NCBI RefSeq assembly: GCF_000511955.1
Contig: NZ_AZSU01000001.1
Location: forward strand, 98,596-162,595
Length of the DNA: 64,000 bases
From: [Clostridium] ultunense DSM 10521
Lineage (GTDB): Bacteria > Bacillota > Clostridia > Tissierellales > Tepidimicrobiaceae
Direction: 5' to 3'
Part shown: one piece after another, positions 1,130-25,800 of the stretch
How the letters are laid out: each line of letters begins with the position of its first letter
How positions within the stretch are numbered: the stretch's first letter is position 1
Program-made: the position numbers and the translations under genes
Notes under the pieces: generated by a model
Seen by the model: the letters and a program-made list of their open reading frames with translations, nothing else
Database searches by the model: none
What the model was told of the DNA's origin: nothing

Positions 1130-2851
1130 ATGAAAAGAAAGTTATCGTTATTACTAGCGCTAGTGTTAGTATTATCAGTTTTCTTAGCAGCCTGCGGTAA
1201 AACTGAAGAACCTGCAGATGTTGGTAGTGACGAACCAACAGAAACAGAAGCTCCTGAAGAAGGGGCAAAAAACCCAGCTAAGGACAGGGAGGGTGCAGAT
1301 AATACTATAATAATTGGTATGACAGAAGCAAAAGGTGAATTAATGCCAGTTTATTATAGTACTGGCTACGATGGCTACGTAGTTGATTATATGTTTGATC
1401 AATTATTTACCAATGACGAAGCTGGAGAGTATATACCCCATGTGGCTAAAGAATGGGAGATATCGGATGATAAATTGACCTATACCTTCCATTTGAGAGA
1501 TGATGTTAAGTTTGCAGATGGAACACCACTTACAGCCCATGATGTTGAATTTACTTACTTAGCAATGGCAGATCCAAACTATGACGGCAGATATTTTGCT
1601 TATGTAGATGGATTAGTTGGCTACGAAGAATATGCTGAAGGAAATGCTGAAAATCTATCTGGTGTTGTAGTACATGATGACTATACAATATCCTTTACAT
1701 TTAAGGAGCCGCGAGTTGCAAACTTTACTTATTGTAATATGCATATAATGCCAAAACATCATTATGATTTTGAAAAAGGAGATATTGAAGCATTAAAGGC
1801 TAAAATGCGGGACCCACTTGGCTCTGGCGGATATTCCTTTGTACATTTAGAACCAGGTCAATATATAGAATTAAAAGCAAATATGGATTATTTCTTAGGG
1901 GCACCTAAAATTGAAAATTTAATACTTAAATTTACAACTGCTGAAACTTACATGGCTGAGCTAGAAAAAGGTACTATTGACGTTCAAAATTCAGTAACCA
2001 ATACGGTGGAAAACAAAGAGACTATGGAAGCTATGGGATTTGTACATCTTAACGCATTTCCTAACAATGGATATGCTTATATAGGATTAAACCATTCAGA
2101 CCCAAGATTAGCAGATAAGAATGTACGTCAAGCATTGGTTTATGGACTAGACCGTCAAAGTTTTGTAACAAACTTCTTTAAAGGTCATGGTCAAGTATGC
2201 CATGTACCATTATCACCAGTATCTTGGGCTTATACAGATACTTTAGCTGAAAAGATGAACAAATATGAATACAATCCAGATAAGGCTGTAGAATTATTAG
2301 AAGAAGCTGGATGGAAACTTGGTTCCGATGGAATTAGAGAAAAAGATGGTATGAAACTTAAATTTGTATATTCCACATATCCAGACTCAGAATGGGTTGA
2401 GCAATTGATTCCAGTATTAATAGATAACTGGGGTAAAATCGGCGTTGCTATAGAAATAAACTATATGGACTTTAATGCATTATCTGATGCCGTATATGAA
2501 GAACATGATTTTGATATGTACAATATGGCTTGGAGCTTAACTGTTGACCCAGACTCTTATTCCGTATACCACAGCAGTCAAACAAGAAAAGCCGGTAACA
2601 ATGCGGTTCAATTTATAAATGAAAAGAATGATCAATTGTTAGAAGCAGGCAGAAAAGAATTTGACCAAGAAAAACGTAAAGAAATATATGAAGAGTGGGC
2701 TCTAAATATAAACGAAGAACTTCCATATATATATATATATCAAAGAGAGGAATGGAATATGGTTAACGACCGTATAAAAGGCTTTGAATGCTCACCATTT
2801 GTAGATATGAGCTATCCGCAAGTATATTTAAATATGGAGATAGTAAAATAA
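1130..2851 (+). CDS. oppA: Oligopeptide ABC transporter, substrate-binding lipoprotein
   Basis: The 573-residue product is a family 5 extracellular solute-binding protein (SBP_bac_5, OppA/DppA type). It should sit on the outer face of the membrane and deliver peptides to the OppBCDF importer encoded downstream. A lipoprotein signal with lipobox LAAC puts the acylated Cys at residue 22, followed by a Glu/Pro/Thr-rich linker to about residue 55. The start of the fold (DDVKFADGTPLTAHDVEFT) and its central lobe (VRQALVYGLDRQ) are typical. GGGGGAG lies 8 bases before the ATG, and a consensus promoter is at 1050-1079. A 115-bp gap with a hairpin separates it from oppB, a usual arrangement that lets the binding protein be made in excess. 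Confidence 0.93.
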   Translation: MKRKLSLLLALVLVLSVFLAACGKTEEPADVGSDEPTETEAPEEGAKNPAKDREGADNTIIIGMTEAKGELMPVYYSTGYDGYVVDYMFDQLFTNDEAGEYIPHVAKEWEISDDKLTYTFHLRDDVKFADGTPLTAHDVEFTYLAMADPNYDGRYFAYVDGLVGYEEYAEGNAENLSGVVVHDDYTISFTFKEPRVANFTYCNMHIMPKHHYDFEKGDIEALKAKMRDPLGSGGYSFVHLEPGQYIELKANMDYFLGAPKIENLILKFTTAETYMAELEKGTIDVQNSVTNTVENKETMEAMGFVHLNAFPNNGYAYIGLNHSDPRLADKNVRQALVYGLDRQSFVTNFFKGHGQVCHVPLSPVSWAYTDTLAEKMNKYEYNPDKAVELLEEAGWKLGSDGIREKDGMKLKFVYSTYPDSEWVEQLIPVLIDNWGKIGVAIEINYMDFNALSDAVYEEHDFDMYNMAWSLTVDPDSYSVYHSSQTRKAGNNAVQFINEKNDQLLEAGRKEFDQEKRKEIYEEWALNINEELPYIYIYQREEWNMVNDRIKGFECSPFVDMSYPQVYLNMEIVK

Positions 2852-2880
2852 TTAAATTTTAAAAAAGAAGTAGGAATAGT

Positions 2881-2910
2881 ATAAACCCGGTATTAGACCA
2901 CCGGGTTTAT
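2881..2910 (+). terminator. Intercistronic hairpin after oppA
   Basis: ATAAACCCGGT (2881-2891) pairs with ACCGGGTTTAT (2900-2910), 11 perfect pairs with an 8-nt loop. There is no long T run, so partial termination or protection of the oppA mRNA 3' end is more likely than full termination. Confidence 0.55.
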
Positions 2911-2966
2911 GTTGTATTAACCATAACTTTATGGCGTTAAAGGGTTAATAATTAAGGAGGGAGAAT

Positions 2967-3929
2967 ATGCTGAAATATATTGGGAGAAGATTATTACATT
3001 TAATACCTGTAATCTTAATAATATCTTTTTTAATATTTGGAATCATCAAAATGACTCCTGGAGATCCTGTTGGAGCAAATTTAGACCCAAGATCTACTGC
3101 TGAGCAAAAAGCAGCAGAAAGGGCTAGACTAGGGTTGGACAAACCGGTTCATATTCAATATTGGAATTGGTTAAAGCGTTCAATTAGGGGGGATTTTGGA
3201 AACTCCTATATCTATAAAGTGCCTGTAAAAGATGTAATTCCCGGATTCATTAAAAATAGTTTTATTTTAAATGTTTTTGTATATATATTTGCTTTTTTAA
3301 TATCCATCCCAATAGGTATAATCACAGCGGTAAAACAGTATTCCAAGACGGATAATTTTTGGAGTGCTTTTTCCATTATAGGAATTTCCATGCCTACATT
3401 CTTCTTTGGATTGCTGTTAATCTATTTCTTTGCAGTAAAAATGGATCTATTTCCTATAAGTGGAATGATGACGGTAGGAAGCAAAGCTACAGGTTTAGCT
3501 AAAGTTAAGGATACATTACACCATATGGTTTTACCGGGCACGGTTTTAATAATAGGAAGTTTAGCCAGTTTAGTCCGTTATACCAGGACTTCTATGTTAG
3601 AGGTTATAAATCAAGATTATATTCGTACTGCTAGATCTAAGGGGCTTGAAGAAAAGGTGGTAATATATAAACATGCTTTCAGAAATGCCCTCATTCCAAT
3701 AATAACTATTGTAGGGTTTATGATACCCGGACTTTTTTCAGGTGCGGTAATGTTAGAAACAGTATTTAATTGGCCTGGTATTGGAAGGAGATTAATTGAA
3801 GCCGTTAATCTTAGGGATTATAACCTTATGATGGCTCTAAATATGTTTTTCGCAATATTAACTTTATTAGGAAATTTATTGGCGGATATAGGATATGCTT
3901 TAGTAGATCCGAGAATAAAAGTGGATTAG
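2967..3929 (+). CDS. oppB: Oligopeptide ABC transporter, permease OppB
   Basis: The 320-residue inner-membrane permease belongs to the BPD_transp_1 family, DppB/OppB type. It starts MLKYIGRRLLHLIPV with the usual first transmembrane helix and then the periplasmic-side motif PGDP. Five more hydrophobic segments follow, with the EAA coupling loop near residue 225 (DYIRTARSKGLEEKVV) that contacts the ATPases. AAGGAGGG is well placed before the ATG. oppC follows after 12 bases, so the two are certainly co-transcribed. Length and motif order are normal for the family. Confidence 0.95.
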   Translation: MLKYIGRRLLHLIPVILIISFLIFGIIKMTPGDPVGANLDPRSTAEQKAAERARLGLDKPVHIQYWNWLKRSIRGDFGNSYIYKVPVKDVIPGFIKNSFILNVFVYIFAFLISIPIGIITAVKQYSKTDNFWSAFSIIGISMPTFFFGLLLIYFFAVKMDLFPISGMMTVGSKATGLAKVKDTLHHMVLPGTVLIIGSLASLVRYTRTSMLEVINQDYIRTARSKGLEEKVVIYKHAFRNALIPIITIVGFMIPGLFSGAVMLETVFNWPGIGRRLIEAVNLRDYNLMMALNMFFAILTLLGNLLADIGYALVDPRIKVD

Positions 3930-3941
3930 GGGGGACATCTG

Positions 3942-4874
3942 ATGGCTGAGAAGAATATAGATTTAAAACCTGATAATATAAATGTAGAAGAAAAAAGTGA
4001 AATTGAACAGGAAATACTAACACCTTGGAAATTAATAAGGCGTAAATTCTTAAAGAGGAAGCCTTCGGTAGTGGCCTTGATAATATTAGGAATTATTATA
4101 CTGGCTGTTATATTGGCTCCCCTCTTAACGGTTCACGATCCTTATGAATTGAATATGACCAATACCAATCAACCTCCATCTAGAGAACATAAATTAGGAA
4201 CGGATGAACTCGGTAGAGACAATCTTTCAAGGGTATTGCATGGAGGTAAAGTTGCATTACAGGTAGGTATATTTGCGGTAGTCATCGAAGTAATATTAGG
4301 AACCCTAATTGGAGGGATTGCAGGGTATTATGGAGGATGGGTAGACAATATTCTGATGAGGATTACCGAGGTCTTCATGTCCTTTCCATTCTTACCCTTG
4401 GTAATTACCATTTCGGCAGTTGTTGGAGTTAGAATAAGTCCAGAACAAAAAATGTACTTGGTCATGGTTATTCTTGGAGTTTTAAGCTGGCCAGGTCTTG
4501 CTAGAATAGTTAGAGGTCAGATATTGTCTTTAAGGGAACAGGAATTTGTCCTTGCTGCAAAGGCTTTAGGTATAAGGAATACAAAGATTATTTGGAGACA
4601 TTTAATTCCAAATACCGTAGGATATATTGTTGTTAATGCTACAATAGGAGTAGCTTCTGCAATACTGCAGGAAAGTGCACTATCCTTCCTTGGCCTAGGG
4701 GTAGCACCACCAGTACCCACTTGGGGTAACTTAATACAGTATGCAAGGGATATGTACAATCTACAGCATCGTCCTTGGTTATGGATACCACCAGGATTAT
4801 TAATCTTTGCTACAGTAATGTGTATAAACTTAATAGGTGATGGCTTACGTGATGCTATTGACCCTAAATCTTAA
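3942..4874 (+). CDS. oppC: Oligopeptide ABC transporter, permease OppC
   Basis: The 310-residue second permease has a charged N-terminal tail of about 35 residues, one transmembrane helix, the DppC/OppC landmark HKLGTDELGRDNLSR near residues 84-98, and then the BPD_transp_1 bundle. The EAA loop FVLAAKALGIRNTKII and the C-terminal ESALSFLGLGVAPPVPTWG motif are intact. A GGGGGGAC ribosome site overlaps the end of oppB. It forms the translocation pore with OppB. Confidence 0.95.
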   Translation: MAEKNIDLKPDNINVEEKSEIEQEILTPWKLIRRKFLKRKPSVVALIILGIIILAVILAPLLTVHDPYELNMTNTNQPPSREHKLGTDELGRDNLSRVLHGGKVALQVGIFAVVIEVILGTLIGGIAGYYGGWVDNILMRITEVFMSFPFLPLVITISAVVGVRISPEQKMYLVMVILGVLSWPGLARIVRGQILSLREQEFVLAAKALGIRNTKIIWRHLIPNTVGYIVVNATIGVASAILQESALSFLGLGVAPPVPTWGNLIQYARDMYNLQHRPWLWIPPGLLIFATVMCINLIGDGLRDAIDPKS

Positions 4875-4893
4875 GAGGATAGGAGGATAGAAT

Positions 4894-5871
4894 ATGACCA
4901 AATTATTAGAAGTTAAGGATTTAAAAACTTACTTTTACACGGATGATGGAGTAGTAAAAGCTGTTGATGGCGTTGACTTTTCAGTAGAAGCAGGTAAGAC
5001 TATAGGAATAGTAGGGGAATCAGGCTGTGGTAAAAGTATAACGGCCATGTCCATACTACGCTTAATACCAGATCCTCCAGGAAAGATAGTAAACGGAGAA
5101 GTCATATTTGAAGAAGAGGATCTTACTAAGGTATCGGATAAGAGGATACGGGAGATAAGAGGGAATAATATTTCCATGATATTTCAGGAACCTATGACTT
5201 CACTGAATCCGGTATTCACTGTAGGTTTTCAGATAGGAGAAGTACTAATGCTTCACCAAAAGCTCAGTGAGGAAGAGGCTAAGAAAAGAGCTATTGAAAT
5301 GATAAATTTAGTAGGGATTCCTAATGCGGAAAGGATTGTTGGTGAATATCCCCACCAATTGTCTGGTGGAATGAGACAGAGAGTAATGATAGCTATGGCT
5401 TTGGCATGTCAACCTAAGCTTCTCATTGCTGATGAGCCTACTACGGCTCTAGATGTAACTATTCAAGCTCAAATATTAGAAATTATGAATGATTTAAAAA
5501 GCAGATTAAATACATCTATAATGTTAATAACCCATGATCTAGGGGTTATTTCAGAGATGGCAGACCATGTTATAGTGATGTATTCTGGGAAAGTAGTTGA
5601 GGATGCACCTATTATGGAATTGTTTAAGAATCCAAGGCATCCCTATACTATTGGACTTATGGCCTCTATCCCTTCTTTAGTTAAAGAAGGTCAAAGATTG
5701 GAAACTATTCCAGGGGCTGTACCAAATCCACTTTATCTACCTAAAGGATGCTATTTCCATCCTAGATGTAAATATGCCACAGATGAATGTAAGAAGGCTC
5801 AACCAGAATTAAGGGAAGTAGCACCTGGCCATAAAGCTGCCTGTATAAGAGCTGAGGAGGTGACTAGATAA
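4894..5871 (+). CDS. oppD: Oligopeptide ABC transporter, ATPase OppD
   Basis: The 325-residue ATPase has Walker A GESGCGKS, a Q-loop, signature LSGGMRQRV, Walker B LLIADEPTTALD and H-loop THDLG. The C-terminal oligo_HPY region with spaced cysteines (CYFHPRCKYATDEC) is typical of Opp/Dpp ATPases, where it can bind an iron-sulfur cluster. AGGAGG lies ahead of the ATG. Its TAA stop shares a base with the oppF start codon, which implies translational coupling. Confidence 0.95.
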   Translation: MTKLLEVKDLKTYFYTDDGVVKAVDGVDFSVEAGKTIGIVGESGCGKSITAMSILRLIPDPPGKIVNGEVIFEEEDLTKVSDKRIREIRGNNISMIFQEPMTSLNPVFTVGFQIGEVLMLHQKLSEEEAKKRAIEMINLVGIPNAERIVGEYPHQLSGGMRQRVMIAMALACQPKLLIADEPTTALDVTIQAQILEIMNDLKSRLNTSIMLITHDLGVISEMADHVIVMYSGKVVEDAPIMELFKNPRHPYTIGLMASIPSLVKEGQRLETIPGAVPNPLYLPKGCYFHPRCKYATDECKKAQPELREVAPGHKAACIRAEEVTR

Positions 5872-6842
5872 TGAGTGAAGTTTTATTAGAAGTAAATAAT
5901 TTAAAAAAATATTTTCCTATTACTAGGGGCTTTATAAAAAGCAAGGTAGGGGATGTTAAGGCTGTAGACGATGTTTCCCTATTTATTAAAGAAGGTGAAA
6001 CATTAGGTATAGTAGGAGAATCAGGATGTGGAAAATCCACTTTAGGAAGAACTTTATTAAGGTTATATGATGCTACAGCTGGAGAGGTAAGATTTAGGGG
6101 TAAAGATGTACTAAATGCGCCAAAGGACCAGATAAAAGAATTAAGAAAGGAAATGCAGATAGTATTTCAAGACCCTTATAGCTCATTAAATCCTAGGATG
6201 ACCGTATCTCAAATAGTGGGGGAAGCATTAGTTGAACATGGATTGTATAGGAAAGGAAAAGAATTAGATGATTATGTCGTAGAAATTATGAATAAATGTG
6301 GATTGGCTAGATACCATATGAATAGATATCCTCACGAATTTTCTGGAGGTCAGAGACAGCGGATTGGTGTTGCTAGAGCTTTAGCACTAAGTCCATCTTT
6401 TATAGTAGCAGATGAACCTGTTTCAGCTCTTGATGTGTCCATCCAATCTCAGGTTATAAACTTATTTACAGATCTGCAGAGGGAATTAAATATTTCATAT
6501 ATGTTTATTTCCCATGATTTAGGAGTTGTTAGATATATATCCCATAGGGTTGGGGTTATGTATTTAGGTTCTATGGTGGAGTTGGCAGATAAAAATGCTT
6601 TATTTGACAACTCAAAGCATCCATATACCCAGGCCCTATTATCGGCTATCCCCCATCCAGATCCAACTATGAAAAGGGATAGAATTATACTTGAAGGAGA
6701 TATACCAAGTCCAGCAAATCCACCATCTGGGTGCAAATTCCATACCCGATGTATGTATGTAGAAGATATTTGTAGGGAAGAGGTACCTGAATTTAGAGAT
6801 TTAGGAGGAGAACATTTTGTGGCGTGCCACCTGGCGAAATAG
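5871..6842 (+). CDS. oppF: Oligopeptide ABC transporter, ATPase OppF
   Basis: The 323-residue partner of OppD carries Walker A GESGCGKST, signature FSGGQRQRIG, Walker B FIVADEPVSALD and the C-terminal oligo_HPY segment CKFHTRCMYVEDIC. The start ATG overlaps the oppD stop by one base. Its own 3' end overlaps the next small gene, whose ribosome site lies inside the oppF coding sequence. OppD and OppF are expected to form the heterodimeric motor of the importer. Confidence 0.95.
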   Translation: MSEVLLEVNNLKKYFPITRGFIKSKVGDVKAVDDVSLFIKEGETLGIVGESGCGKSTLGRTLLRLYDATAGEVRFRGKDVLNAPKDQIKELRKEMQIVFQDPYSSLNPRMTVSQIVGEALVEHGLYRKGKELDDYVVEIMNKCGLARYHMNRYPHEFSGGQRQRIGVARALALSPSFIVADEPVSALDVSIQSQVINLFTDLQRELNISYMFISHDLGVVRYISHRVGVMYLGSMVELADKNALFDNSKHPYTQALLSAIPHPDPTMKRDRIILEGDIPSPANPPSGCKFHTRCMYVEDICREEVPEFRDLGGEHFVACHLAK

Positions 6843-20900: not shown

Positions 20901-21731
20901 ATGGGTAGATATATTAAATATGAAATAAGAGGCTCTTATAAGTTTATACTAGGAGTATTGGCTTTAGTTCTAATACTTACAACAGGAATATACGCCTATA
21001 TATCTAATGCTAGAGAAGGTTCAGCATTAGGGGCGACATTTACAGGTCTATCGGTTTTAGTTATATTTGGAACATTGCTAACTACATTTTTATATATAGT
21101 AAATTCTTTTAGAAAGGAATTATATGAGGATAGAGGATATTTAACCTTTACATTGCCTTTGACAGGAAATCAAATATTAGGTGCTAAACTAATAGTAGCT
21201 TTTATGTGGTTTGTCCTTTTAGGAGTGGTCATAGCAATATATAACGGTATTATGGTATTAAGTTTTAGTCCAGTTAAAATCAAGATTTCTGAATTGTTTT
21301 CTATGTTAAAAAATATGAACATACCCTATAGAGAATTAGTGGTTTTTGGTTTAACAGCTATTATTGGTGGGGTTAGTACTCTAATACTGATATATTTCTC
21401 CATGGCTTTAAGTAGAGTTACATTTAGAAATAAAAAAATTGGCGGTTTCTGGTTTGTAATATTCTTGGTACTAAGTGGAATAGTAACCTATGGACAGGTG
21501 AAAGTTATTCAATTATTACCATACTATCTAGATCTAAACACATTTAAAATAGCATCTTCCCATATGCTAAGCTATGGATTTAATATTACCATTAACAATG
21601 GTGGCCTTATAATGAATGGGGATTTAGGAGGTACTATACTAAATATTGCAGGATTTATATATAGTATAGTAATAGGAGTTTTGATGTTTTTAGGTACTGG
21701 ATATTTAATTGAAAATAAGATTGATTTATAA
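20901..21731 (+). CDS. ABC-2-type membrane protein of the YtrA cassette
   Basis: The 276-residue integral membrane protein has six hydrophobic segments, beginning MGRYIKYEIRGSYKFILGVLALVLIL. I chose ATG 20901 because AGGAGGGAAG lies just before it; an earlier in-frame start would overlap the ATPase gene by 30 bases without a ribosome site. The pattern (YKFILGV, then TFLYIVNSFRKELYEDRGYLTFTLPLTG) is typical of permeases paired with YtrA-regulated ATPases. A strong terminator follows directly. Confidence 0.85.
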   Translation: MGRYIKYEIRGSYKFILGVLALVLILTTGIYAYISNAREGSALGATFTGLSVLVIFGTLLTTFLYIVNSFRKELYEDRGYLTFTLPLTGNQILGAKLIVAFMWFVLLGVVIAIYNGIMVLSFSPVKIKISELFSMLKNMNIPYRELVVFGLTAIIGGVSTLILIYFSMALSRVTFRNKKIGGFWFVIFLVLSGIVTYGQVKVIQLLPYYLDLNTFKIASSHMLSYGFNITINNGGLIMNGDLGGTILNIAGFIYSIVIGVLMFLGTGYLIENKIDL

Positions 21732-21777: not shown

Positions 21778-21822
21778 CCCGATTTGAATCGGGTTGCATA
21801 TAGGATTTTTATCAGGTATTAT
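21778..21822 (+). promoter_or_regulatory. Palindromic activator site 1 and promoter of the candidate signal-peptide gene
   Basis: The palindrome CCCGATT-TG-AATCGGG (21778-21793) abuts a -35-like TTGCAT (21794-21799), followed by 17 bp and a -10-like TATTAT (21817-21822). The same core GATTTGAATC, the same GGTTG step and the same -35/-10 spacing occur at 22823-22867. The bases flanking the core differ between the sites (C with G here, A with T there) but stay complementary. This placement is what a class II activator would use, and the adjacent HTH/TPR regulator is the obvious candidate. Confidence 0.65.
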
Positions 21823-21872
21823 TATGGTAAATAGAGCTTGTATATTAAAAAACGAATGGGGAGATAGAGATA

Positions 21873-22025
21873 ATGTTTGAAAAATTTTTATTTGCAATGG
21901 TTATTGTTCTAACATTATTTGTTATTGGATCCAGAGAACAAAATAATATACTTATAGCTGAGAAAGATGATGCAATAGAGTGGAATAATTATGAGATAGA
22001 AGATATTCAGCAACACCTTTTCTAA
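21873..22025 (+). CDS. Candidate signalling-peptide precursor (50 aa)
   Basis: A 50-codon ORF starts at ATG 21873, nine bases after GGGGAG (21858-21863). It begins MFEKFLFAMVIVLTLFVIGS, a short hydrophobic export-type segment, and continues with a polar acidic tail ending in EIEDIQQHLF. Size and layout match pheromone precursors such as PapR that work with RRNPP regulators. The last 74 bases overlap, in antisense, the 3' end of the regulator at 21952-22785, an arrangement known among Rgg/SHP-type pairs. A promoter with a palindromic site lies 50-95 bp upstream. Which part would be the mature peptide cannot be told. Confidence 0.55.
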   Translation: MFEKFLFAMVIVLTLFVIGSREQNNILIAEKDDAIEWNNYEIEDIQQHLF

Positions 22026-22785
22026 AGTATAAAAGATTTAATCCATTGTAATCCCTATGTTGTATACAATAGTCTATGCCTAAATCGGAGTACTTTAAGG
22101 CACTTTCATGGATATCAAGCCGGTGATAGGTATAGGATAAGTTATAGCATATTTTAGGATAAAGTTTCTCATTTGGATCTACTATTTGTATACAGAACTC
22201 CATTATTTCTAAGCTTTTTTCTGTAGATTCAATTTTATTAATTAAAAGAGCTATGTTCATTAGAATTCTTGATTCCATAGAACTGTAGATAAGGTTTTTA
22301 TAGTTATTTAATGAAAATTCAGGTGTAGTTATTTTCATAGCCGCTATTAATTTATCAAGCGCTTCATTAATTTTACTATATTTCTTATTTAATATTATGG
22401 ATTCTATTAATAATATAAGTTGGTTTATTAGATTGATGAAGTAAGTATTAGATTCAGTATGGAGCAAAGCCTTTAAATCATCTAATTCTACTGATAAGGT
22501 TTGGTATTCGTCTCTATCTATTTTAGATTCTAATCTATTTCTTATTTCTTCAAAGGCCTGATAATTATTTAGTCTATAATTTAGTAAGAGTTGGTTTAAA
22601 TCTTTTTTAAGTATAGGGGAAAGTAGGTCTAAAGTTTTTTGGATAGGAATTACTTTACCATTTTCAATCTTTCGTAAGGTATCTTCATGGATTCCTGACA
22701 GTTCACAGACATCTTTCTGAGTAAACCCTAAATTAGTCCTAATGCTACGTGCTTCTTCCCCGAAAGCCTGAAGATTATAATACAT
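21952..22785 (-). CDS. RRNPP-type HTH/TPR transcriptional regulator
   Basis: The 277-residue protein has an N-terminal XRE-type helix-turn-helix (about 8-62: EEARSIRTNLGFTQKDVCEL, HEDTLRKIENGKVIP). An all-helical C-terminal region of about 200 residues with TPR-like segments follows (CYNLSYTYHRLDIHESALKY, LYFRKGVAEYLLSHN). This size and layout match PlcR, NprR and Rgg regulators, which bind imported peptides in the TPR groove. AAAGGGG precedes the ATG. Its own upstream region contains palindrome site 2 (22823-22838), and a reverse promoter TTTACA/TATAAT (22892-22863, 18-bp spacer) lies beyond it, so autoregulation is plausible. Its 3' end overlaps the candidate peptide gene. Confidence 0.8.
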   Translation of the reverse strand: MYYNLQAFGEEARSIRTNLGFTQKDVCELSGIHEDTLRKIENGKVIPIQKTLDLLSPILKKDLNQLLLNYRLNNYQAFEEIRNRLESKIDRDEYQTLSVELDDLKALLHTESNTYFINLINQLILLIESIILNKKYSKINEALDKLIAAMKITTPEFSLNNYKNLIYSSMESRILMNIALLINKIESTEKSLEIMEFCIQIVDPNEKLYPKICYNLSYTYHRLDIHESALKYSDLGIDYCIQHRDYNGLNLLYFRKGVAEYLLSHNYSTLLHHLSQL

Positions 22786-22822
22786 AATATCTCAACCCCT
22801 TTAAATTAACCTTCAAAGCAAC

Positions 22823-22867
22823 CCAGATTTGAATCTGGTTGAAATTTCATTATTTAATATATATTAT
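22823..22867 (+). promoter_or_regulatory. Palindromic activator site 2 and promoter of the binding-protein/peptidase gene
   Basis: The palindrome CCAGATT-TG-AATCTGG (22823-22838) is followed at once by TTGAAA (22839-22844) as -35, a 17-bp spacer and TATTAT (22862-22867) as -10. A TATAAT at 22865-22870 is an alternative. The geometry is identical to site 1 at 21778-21822. On the other strand the palindrome lies about 38 bases before the regulator start codon, so one bound protein could act on both divergent genes. Confidence 0.65.
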
Positions 22868-22967
22868 AATAAAAAGGTTGTGGGCATGTAAAGATAAGGT
22901 TTCTTCAAATTAATAGTAACATTAGATTTTTTAATGATATTTTTTAGAAAGGAGAGCTATCAGTAAT

Positions 22968-25397
22968 ATGAACAAGACGAAGGTGATTACATTATTATTA
23001 ATTTCTATATTAATATTCATTACATTTGTATCAGGCTGTAATATAGTTGATACTTTCAAAGAAGAAAAACCTAATACGGAAAATACATTAGTATGGCATT
23101 TGTCATCAAGTAATGTTACTTTTTGGGACCCGCATTTGAGTAACAGTAGTGATGTGGTTAATATTGCACGTCAAATATTTGAAGGATTAACTGTTTTAAA
23201 TGAGGATGGATATGAATTAGGCGTTGCAGAAAGCTTTACAGTGTCTTCCAATGCCGAAGGGGTAGATAATACTGTATATACTTTTAAATTGAGAGATGAT
23301 GCTAAATGGTCAGATGACAAGGATGTAACAGCTTATGATTTTGAATATAGCTTTAAAAGAGCATGTGAACAAAAGGGTGATATCTCTGAAGTGTACCAAT
23401 TGTATATAAAAGGAGCAGATAAATATATAAATGGAACGGGTAGCAAAGATGATATAAGAGTAAAAGCATTGGATAAATATACATTGGAAATAGAACTTAA
23501 TGAACCAACTCCATATTTCATGGAAATTTTAGCAATGCCTCAATTTCTACCTGTGAGGGAAGATATAATAGAGACTGCAGGTGAAGGATGGGAAACAAAT
23601 CCAAAAACATGTATATCAAATGGTCCATTTAAGCTTTATTCATACGAACCTGGTTCCCATATTTTGCTATCTAAGAACAACAGCTATTATAATAAAAATG
23701 TTAAAGTATCATATGTAAAGTGTCTAATCAATACACAGAACAAGGATATAAATCTCATGTATGATAATGATGAAGTTCATATAATGAGGATATTCCCTTA
23801 TGGGAACATAGATGAAGAGTCTTTGCTATATTCAAATTATATTGGAACTTCTTACATAGTGCTTAATACTGATAAAAAGCCATTTGATGATGTTAACATT
23901 AGGAAAGCATTTGCTTACGCTATTGACAGTAAATACTACTGTGAAGAAATTTATTCAGACAGTATGCAAGCATATGGCTTTATACCATCTGATATAAAGC
24001 TTAGTGATGGTACTCCTATTGGAGAAAAACGTAAAGATGTAGATTATCTATTGAACGTTAGTTCAGAAAAGGCAAGGGAATTATTAAATATAGCAGGATA
24101 CAATGATGATTTTCCACAAGTTAAACTGACTGTAGATGATGAAAACTATGGAAACATTTTTAAGAGCATGCTTGAGAATAATTTGAACATTAAGGTGAAA
24201 CTTGAAGTAGTAACATTTGAAGAACTCATAGATAAAAGTAATACTGGTGATTTTGAAATGATTACCAACTCATGGAGAGCAGATTATAATGATTCTATGA
24301 CGTTCCTTTCTAATTTCAGTACAAACTTAAATGATAATAATTTTTGGTATAATCAATATTTCGAAGATGCAATAGCAAATTCTGCCGTAACTGCAGGAAT
24401 AGAAAGAGACGAGTATCTAATTGGTGCAGAGGAAATATTGATTGAAGAATTGCCCGCTATTCCAATAAATCATTACCGTATGTGCTATCGCTTCAATGAT
24501 AAGCTATTAGAAAATTTAAAGTGTGATGTATTAGGGAATTTAATTTTTAAGGATTGCATTTTACTTTCTGACAATATTAAAGTAAATGATATAGAAGGGT
24601 TAGAAAATGATGAAAATAGAAATATTTATAGATTTGATAATAGGAACAGGATTGAGGAAATAGATAAAAATGGTTATTTTGAAGACAGTGCAGGATATAG
24701 ATTTGATAAGTATATAGTAAGTGAGCATTTTGAACTATATTATAATTCAAACAATGAATTAAATGAGCTTTATGCTTCAAATTCTATCAAAACATTGGAA
24801 GAAGAATATGACAGAATATTAAGCTTCCTAGATGTAGATGAAGAAAACATGCCTGTTGTTAAAATCAATATGTATGATAATTATGAAGCTTTACGACAGA
24901 ATATAATCAAAGAGCAAAGTGTTGATTATGAAGATAAGAGCATAAATGTAGCGGGTTATGCTGGAAATAGCAATACATTTTATTACACCTGGAAGTATAA
25001 AAACGGAAAGGTTGGCAGGCTTGCGGAATTAGATACTACTGTATTACATGAATTTGTCCACAATGTGACAATGGCGTTAGCAAACGAAAAGCGTCATGAT
25101 AGTTGGCTTATGGAGGGAACAGCAATGTATTTGGCACAGCATAAGGATAGGCAAGAGCCCTACTACGATGAATTGCTAGAGCAGGGGATACCTGAAATAT
25201 ATACATTAAAAGTGCCCAGTGAGGATGTATATAAATACGGTTACAGCATGGTTGAATATATTGTTGAAACCTACGGTAGGGAAAAACTGGTTGAATTGCT
25301 AAGAGAATATGGTGATATAGAAAAAGTCTTGGATATTTCTGAAAGTGAATTCAGAGATGAATGGGTAGAATTTTTAAATGATAAAATAAATTATTAA
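22968..25397 (+). CDS. Lipoprotein fusing an oligopeptide-binding domain to an HExxH metallopeptidase
   Basis: The 809-residue lipoprotein has lipobox VSGC (Cys24). Residues about 40-545 form an OppA-type SBP_bac_5 domain (WDPHLSNSSDVVNIARQIFEGL, LRDDAKWSDDKDVTAYDFEYS, VNIRKAFAYAIDSKYY). Residues about 595-805 look like a gluzincin peptidase of the peptidase_MA type: HEFVH at 694-698 and a downstream Glu716 in WLMEGTAMYLA as third zinc ligand. Both domains would face outward. The fusion could bind and cleave peptides at the cell surface. The gene sits beside an RRNPP regulator and a candidate pheromone gene and has a copy of their shared palindrome at its promoter. AAAGGAGAG precedes the start. 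No permease or ATPase genes accompany it, so import would rely on Opp proteins encoded elsewhere. Confidence 0.85.
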   Translation: MNKTKVITLLLISILIFITFVSGCNIVDTFKEEKPNTENTLVWHLSSSNVTFWDPHLSNSSDVVNIARQIFEGLTVLNEDGYELGVAESFTVSSNAEGVDNTVYTFKLRDDAKWSDDKDVTAYDFEYSFKRACEQKGDISEVYQLYIKGADKYINGTGSKDDIRVKALDKYTLEIELNEPTPYFMEILAMPQFLPVREDIIETAGEGWETNPKTCISNGPFKLYSYEPGSHILLSKNNSYYNKNVKVSYVKCLINTQNKDINLMYDNDEVHIMRIFPYGNIDEESLLYSNYIGTSYIVLNTDKKPFDDVNIRKAFAYAIDSKYYCEEIYSDSMQAYGFIPSDIKLSDGTPIGEKRKDVDYLLNVSSEKARELLNIAGYNDDFPQVKLTVDDENYGNIFKSMLENNLNIKVKLEVVTFEELIDKSNTGDFEMITNSWRADYNDSMTFLSNFSTNLNDNNFWYNQYFEDAIANSAVTAGIERDEYLIGAEEILIEELPAIPINHYRMCYRFNDKLLENLKCDVLGNLIFKDCILLSDNIKVNDIEGLENDENRNIYRFDNRNRIEEIDKNGYFEDSAGYRFDKYIVSEHFELYYNSNNELNELYASNSIKTLEEEYDRILSFLDVDEENMPVVKINMYDNYEALRQNIIKEQSVDYEDKSINVAGYAGNSNTFYYTWKYKNGKVGRLAELDTTVLHEFVHNVTMALANEKRHDSWLMEGTAMYLAQHKDRQEPYYDELLEQGIPEIYTLKVPSEDVYKYGYSMVEYIVETYGREKLVELLREYGDIEKVLDISESEFRDEWVEFLNDKINY

Positions 25398-25472
25398 GTT
25401 TTACAAACAAATTAAAATACACTACCTAATGAAGTAAATTGACATTTTTATGGAAATCTATTATCTAAACTA

Positions 25473-25690
25473 CATTCATATTATAAACATAGTTTTCAGG
25501 ATTTGCCTATTCAAGGTAAAAAAGTCATTATAGGGATTAAGTAATAGATTTACGTTCTAAGGAAAAAACCTATAAACAAATTACAAAAATATTGTGGGAA
25601 AAAGGATATACAGGAAACTATAAATATAATTCACTCTATTGCAGATGGAGAGAGTTAAGCGAAAGTTTTTGTTGCTTATTCTTTTAAATC
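25473..25690 (+). pseudogene. Remnant of an ISL3-type transposase gene
   Basis: A short frame at about 25473-25545 encodes HSYYKHSFQDLPIQGKKVII, which resembles the N-terminal DLPI.GK motif of ISL3 transposases, and ends in TAA. Another frame just after it (about 25543-25690) encodes LRSKEKTYKQITKILWEKGY and a basic continuation, resembling a later part of the same family. The catalytic region is missing. The roughly 400-bp gap between neighbouring genes otherwise contains only A/T-rich DNA with TATAAT-like boxes near 25740. Confidence 0.4.
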
Positions 25691-25800
25691 ACTTTTTAAA
25701 TTTTGCTAGTGCCTTTAGTTAGATAGGTATAATATTTGGATATAATATATAATATAGATAATACTATAGCAAATTATTTTCATATCAAATGGAGGCTAAA

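Follow-up and report, generated by a model that had tools for sequence, protein, structure and literature searches.

The 64,000-nucleotide stretch of [Clostridium] ultunense DSM 10521 analysed here (contig NZ_AZSU01000001.1, positions 98,596 to 162,595; hereafter the window) carries three adjacent genes, encoding a helix-turn-helix/tetratricopeptide-repeat (HTH-TPR) regulator, a 50-residue peptide, and a lipoprotein in which a substrate-binding protein (SBP) is fused to a predicted peptidase. Together with two palindromic operators they probably form a working, horizontally acquired, pheromone-responsive circuit of the RRNPP type, to which we assign a probability of about 0.72. For the regulator family as a whole an RRNPP-type circuit is very likely; confidence for the window is lower because its regulator is truncated. 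All three open reading frames were found where the original prediction, made from the DNA alone, had placed them, and its RRNPP-type assignment is supported by relatives from several bacterial families, in which regulator, exported precursor, and promoter palindrome co-occur.

The 19-bp motif CCNGATTTGAATCNGGTTG was located at both operator positions (Table 1). With up to three mismatches the window contains three matches where 0.10 would be expected, one of the three being site 1 read in reverse; a count of three was not reached in any of 100 shuffles. In the entire 3.2-Mb genome, a 20-bp form of the operator, again with up to three mismatches, is found in two places only, both within the locus; that palindromes bracket the regulator and precede the −35 boxes of both forward genes, as had been proposed, was borne out. 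The operator reads AACCnGATTtgAATCnGGTT, with the half-site form AACCnGATT-TG-AATCnGGTT, and at both sites its last three bases already belong to the −35 box, which begins with them. The same operator-TTGAAA-N17-TATTAT layout precedes peptide genes of distant genera, as in locus L103 (CCCCGATTCAAATCGGGTTGAAA-N17-TATTAT), and operators at peptide genes read GCCGATTCAAATCGGCTTGAAA in L097 and L101 and AACCAGATTTAAATCGGGTT in L093, while TTTACA-N17/18-TATAAT was found again upstream of homologous regulators. A scan of 17 genomes returned matches mainly at peptide genes of the core type described below, with few control matches and, in the Thermoanaerobacter-type genomes among them, none. The arrangement of promoters and operators fits a regulator that activates both forward genes and keeps its own production in check. 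The bare 10-bp core GATTTGAATC was rejected as a regulon marker, being no commoner in the genome (11 matches) than its reversed control (14 matches).

The propeptide has a hydrophobic N-terminus, predicted from its hydrophobicity to be of the export type, and its size lies inside the range of 10–100 residues used as an RRNPP criterion. Its candidate pheromone core is DDAIEWNNY. The homologous convergent peptide gene of L062 encodes an identical core, and all codon changes inside the core are synonymous; since this gene does not overlap the regulator gene, conservation of the core is not a by-product of gene overlap. The nonsynonymous substitution rate of the peptide core is dN 0.16, the synonymous rate dS 1.2. 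Related propeptides share a [DE]DxIxWxSY-like core, represented by DDSIEWYSY in L063, DDTIEWYSY in L064, DGMIDWHSY in L068, DDLIDAHSY in L071, EVIEWHTL in L072, EDAIELHSY in L097 and L101, and EDLIRWHSV in L103. Export-type peptides of 41–71 residues or longer adjoin most homologous regulators, and by manual count a core-bearing peptide is present at 17 of the 27 loci with a readable regulator. In two metagenome-assembled genomes the core is repeated in tandem: the propeptide of L099 (7600-8000) holds four copies of GEEDMIWLHS(A/D), and that of L102 (1-386) at least seven copies of GEDDLIRLH, the contig ending there. Propeptides with several pheromone copies have been reported in other RRNPP systems (PMC9765709, PMC11343458), but those belong to Rap-Phr systems and differ in sequence.

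The N-terminal HTH of the regulator is recognized by Pfam as HTH_3 (E = 9e-8, 32.4 bits, cut-off 23), and the C-terminal part matches RNPP_C below the cut-off of 26.5 (E = 2e-4, 21.2 bits). The AlphaFold model (predicted local distance difference test, pLDDT, 92) shows helical pairs corresponding to four TPRs, against five in relatives. Its top Foldseek match is the PlcR-PapR7-DNA complex (PDB 3u3w, E = 1.5e-7), and ComR and Rgg2 are among the further matches; template-modelling scores are moderate, about 0.56, as expected for flexible TPR superhelices. The homologue search (100 relatives plus named genomes) returned regulators of about 46–75% identity from many Tissierellales (Tissierella), Caldanaerobacter, Thermoanaerobacter, and several metagenome-assembled genomes, with remoter homologues in Catonella and Proteiniclasticum.

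Judged from gene order in related genomes, the whole locus is an insertion: the flanking genes (ABC-2 permease and M48 peptidase) stand about 130 bp apart in G018 and G010 and about 600 bp apart in G016, without any of the locus genes between them. In the regulator tree the window protein clusters with other families and not with its own genus. A plasmid or phage origin was rejected, there being no plasmid match and no viral contig. In two assemblies of the same genus, G001 and G002, the sequence stops at window positions 21688 and 26573 and everything between is missing; these shared breakpoints could reflect a repeat, or an effect of assembly or masking. After the lipoprotein gene follows non-coding DNA (25400-25790) with a broken reading (YKQITKILWEKGYTGNYKYNSLYCRWRELSESF), maybe a scrap of a transposase, for which Pfam gave no match.

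Table 1. Window positions of the circuit components and of the candidate import operon.
Feature	Position	Strand	Description
Opp/Dpp-type peptide permease operon	1130..6842	+	Complete operon with SBP, two permeases, and two ATPases; candidate pore for import
Operator 1	21778..21796	+	CCCGATTTGAATCGGGTTG; abuts −35 of propeptide promoter; same architecture in relatives
Propeptide promoter	21794..21822	+	TTGCAT-N17-TATTAT, read from sequence
Propeptide gene	21873..22025	+	50 aa, MFEKFLFAMVIVLTLFVIGSREQNNILIAEKDDAIEWNNYEIEDIQQHLF; homologues in relatives
Regulator gene	21952..22785	-	HTH-TPR, 277 aa, PlcR-like fold (Pfam, AlphaFold, Foldseek)
Operator 2	22823..22841	+	CCAGATTTGAATCTGGTTG; abuts SBP-peptidase −35; closely downstream of promoter and start of the regulator transcript
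SBP-peptidase promoter	22839..22867	+	TTGAAA-N17-TATTAT; same form precedes peptide genes in L103, L097, L101, L071
Regulator promoter	22863..22892	-	TTTACA-N18-TATAAT; −10 overlaps −10 of the divergent SBP-peptidase promoter
SBP-peptidase lipoprotein gene	22968..25397	+	Lipobox VSGC; SBP_bac_5 (about residues 36-530) fused to Peptidase_MA_2

In the lipoprotein, the SBP half is assigned to SBP_bac_5 with E = 4e-69, and a phmmer search against the PDB returned OppA of B. subtilis (8are, 7e-61) and PrgZ (4e-40). The other half matches Peptidase_MA_2 below the cut-off of 32.4 (E = 5e-6, 27 bits), without a convincing relative in the PDB; a gluzincin-type HEFVH motif and a downstream glutamate in WLMEGTA predict a peptidase. 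The intact fusion was found only in the window and in one distant genome, G069 (full-length, 58% identity). SBP and peptidase are separate genes in G073, G480 and G482 have the peptidase alone, and a 391-genome sample of the class gave only remote peptidase matches. Apart from the propeptide gene, the SBP-peptidase gene is the only one in the genome preceded by such an operator, and it occupies the slot divergent to the regulator that is taken by a peptide gene in Thermoanaerobacter and some Tissierella. A co-occurrence tie of the fusion to the circuit was rejected, since in neither G069 nor G073 is it adjacent to a homologous regulator. In G073 (L082:5806-16149) the window-related SBP, lacking the peptidase, is part of a cluster resembling those for ribosomally synthesized and post-translationally modified peptides (RiPPs), with an ATP-binding cassette (ABC) exporter, SagB-like, YcaO, and radical S-adenosylmethionine (SAM) proteins and a 425-residue HTH-TPR regulator, followed by a stand-alone peptidase lipoprotein and transposases.

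In the circuit proposed here, the propeptide would be exported and cut near its core to a short pheromone, which would be re-imported by an Opp-type permease. The original prediction had counted every part except this pore; an Opp-type operon is in fact present about 15 kb away in the same window, and more permease homologues are encoded elsewhere in the genome, so import would need no missing part. Once in the cytoplasm, the pheromone would bind the PlcR-like regulator, whose dimer would sit on both operators against the −35 boxes, activating the propeptide gene in a positive feedback as well as the SBP-peptidase gene, and blocking its own transcript, which is expected to start a short distance upstream of operator 2. 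The SBP-peptidase may serve as a surface device that captures, trims, or destroys peptides, most likely the pheromone or a related one; that it handles the pheromone is our preferred reading of its role, at roughly even odds. A more far-reaching version is rather speculative: the circuit would be self-contained, with membrane-anchored binding and cleavage of the pheromone as its only dedicated output, the quorum state would set surface capture, maturation, or destruction, and the four-TPR regulator would have a shifted peptide dependence.

Several observations weigh against a working circuit in the window. Its regulator lacks the last approximately 40 residues (TPR5) of its homologues and carries a new tail of about 15 residues instead; alignment with L062, L063, and L064 revealed a clean deletion of about 150 bp, through which the regulator reading frame runs from codon ~265 directly into the antisense of the 3' end of the peptide gene. 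While the tail-to-tail overlap of both genes is present as predicted, this C-terminal truncation had been missed, and the overlap is the scar of the deletion that removed the regulator C-terminus. In the model of a full-length relative, helices 268-281 and 285-299 form TPR5, whereas that of the window has only a short new helix (268-276), and with TPR5 lost a pheromone response of the window regulator is not to be assumed. The low ratio of nonsynonymous to synonymous substitution of the regulator (0.13–0.24), which speaks for the circuit, could predate the deletion. The inner half-site follows residue 39 of the HTH, lysine going with GATT and arginine with ACTT or GAAT; this speaks for the circuit, but the link is suggestive and not proof, because in the tree it goes back to no more than two or three independent changes. 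In L061, the closest relative, the operator is degenerate and a peptide gene is not recognizable. A regulator kept without small gene and palindromes, the case that the original prediction had named as telling against it, occurs in a minority of relatives, notably the uvrA-linked L065 and L066, where neither operator nor peptide gene is recognizable. In relatives, regulator, peptide, and palindrome do occur together as anticipated, but in none of those found does an SBP-peptidase adjoin the regulator; the notion of the three genes as one conserved unit had to be abandoned, and operator 2 is the one functional tie of the SBP-peptidase to the circuit, because no other regulator of the family adjoins such a gene. 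The truncation could mean that the locus is a broken constitutive remnant, in which the loss of TPR5 has uncoupled the regulator, now binding its operators without peptide or not at all, with the peptide left as a relic. We consider this improbable in view of the intact reading frames, both operators, the three promoters, and the peptide core, and of the confidence with which even the truncated regulator is modelled.

The lipoprotein may instead be a nutritional or defensive output, serving peptide scavenging or the elimination of foreign peptides or RiPPs, and play no part in the handling of the pheromone. The related SBP in the RiPP-like cluster of G073 points in this direction, as do an operator of G045 that precedes a radical-SAM/Cys-rich-peptide/S41/ABC operon and the secreted S8 proteases adjoining the regulator in relatives (no operator was seen at the divergent ones of L063 and L064); PlcR and NprR regulons, too, include secreted proteases. 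On the other side, no such cluster adjoins the window locus, the genome holds no other operator-bearing target, and the SBP half is OppA/PrgZ-like, OppA-like SBPs being known to take up RRNPP peptides including PapR (PMC4701985). A purely nutritional or defensive output is quite possible, if short of being the reading we favour. For the regulator, a PrgX-like repressor relieved by the peptide would agree with operators whose last three bases open the −35 box, where binding could block RNA polymerase, and with operator 2, whose position downstream of the start of the regulator transcript fits repression of that gene. The forward promoters have an imperfect −10 box (TATTAT), however, and their operator directly precedes the −35 box, as with Rgg/ComR-type activators, so that repression of the forward genes appears doubtful and activation is retained in the proposed circuit. 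That the small gene and the palindromes are chance features might have been argued from the frequency with which small overlapping reading frames arise by chance and from the lack of enrichment of the bare core; it is already refuted by the comparative data, that is, by core conservation in non-overlapping homologues, the tandem repeats, and the conserved spacing between operator and promoter.

Among known systems, PlcR-PapR of the Bacillus cereus group is closest in its HTH and TPR fold (the best PDB match), in the adjacent small exported propeptide with OppA-type uptake, as known for PapR, and in its palindromic operators. Yet the window operator is unrelated to the PlcR box (TATGnAnnnnTnCATA), and the core is of the form DDxIEWxSY where PapR has ADLPFEF; the window system is not filed under PlcR because neither operator nor pheromone agrees. 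Furthermore, the window regulon is local and not genome-wide, the regulator lacks TPR5 (relatives have five TPRs), and the propeptide gene is convergent and overlapping instead of co-directional. Rgg-SHP and ComR-ComS of streptococci likewise have their site directly upstream of the −35 box of the pheromone gene, which results in positive feedback; in contrast, outside the HTH, for which ComR chains match at E about 1e-5, their sequences are not closely related to that of the window regulator, and they differ in pheromone and type of export. QssR-QssP of Clostridium saccharoperbutylacetonicum (PMC7206700) and Qsr of C. acetobutylicum (PMC7376267) are clostridial RRNPP regulators with adjacent precursors, but QssR and its precursor are in one operon, whereas the genes are convergent in the window, and relatives have them either convergent or in divergent orientation around a shared operator.

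The RRNPP class is already known (PMC10075063, PMC9765709), and the candidates of RRNPP_detector (PMC10075063) carry the same five-criterion signature, with one Tissierellaceae system counted as adjoining a biosynthetic cluster. The accessible text does not name the window operator, the pheromone family, or the SBP-peptidase output; the data files, outside the search, may list the family. The literature search, supplements and preprints aside, returned no description of this pheromone family, operator code, or SBP-peptidase output; within a known class, all three look as if they had not been described before. For Tissierellales and Thermoanaerobacterales the comparison supplies a readable pheromone and operator code of an RRNPP family undescribed there in the literature searched. 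With this code (core, tandem-repeat propeptides, −35-abutting operator, and putative residue-39 switch), the active peptide can be predicted precisely enough for it to be ordered. To our knowledge, peptide signalling has been little studied in these two orders. Should the pheromone be the substrate of the SBP-peptidase, the open question of surface trimming or capture of RRNPP pheromones could be tested with one protein.

In G045 (L062:8879-12100) a second operator drives an operon encoding a radical-SAM/SPASM enzyme, an 80-residue Cys-rich precursor-like peptide, an S41 peptidase, and an ABC exporter, which looks like a quorum-controlled RiPP cluster; members of the family can therefore control clusters of the peptide-antibiotic type. 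The uvrA-adjoining regulators of L065, L066, and L092, without recognizable operator or peptide gene, are possible orphan receptors. In Thermoanaerobacter (L101, L103, L104, L105), several regulator-peptide pairs with operators occur per genome, forming paralogous signalling systems.

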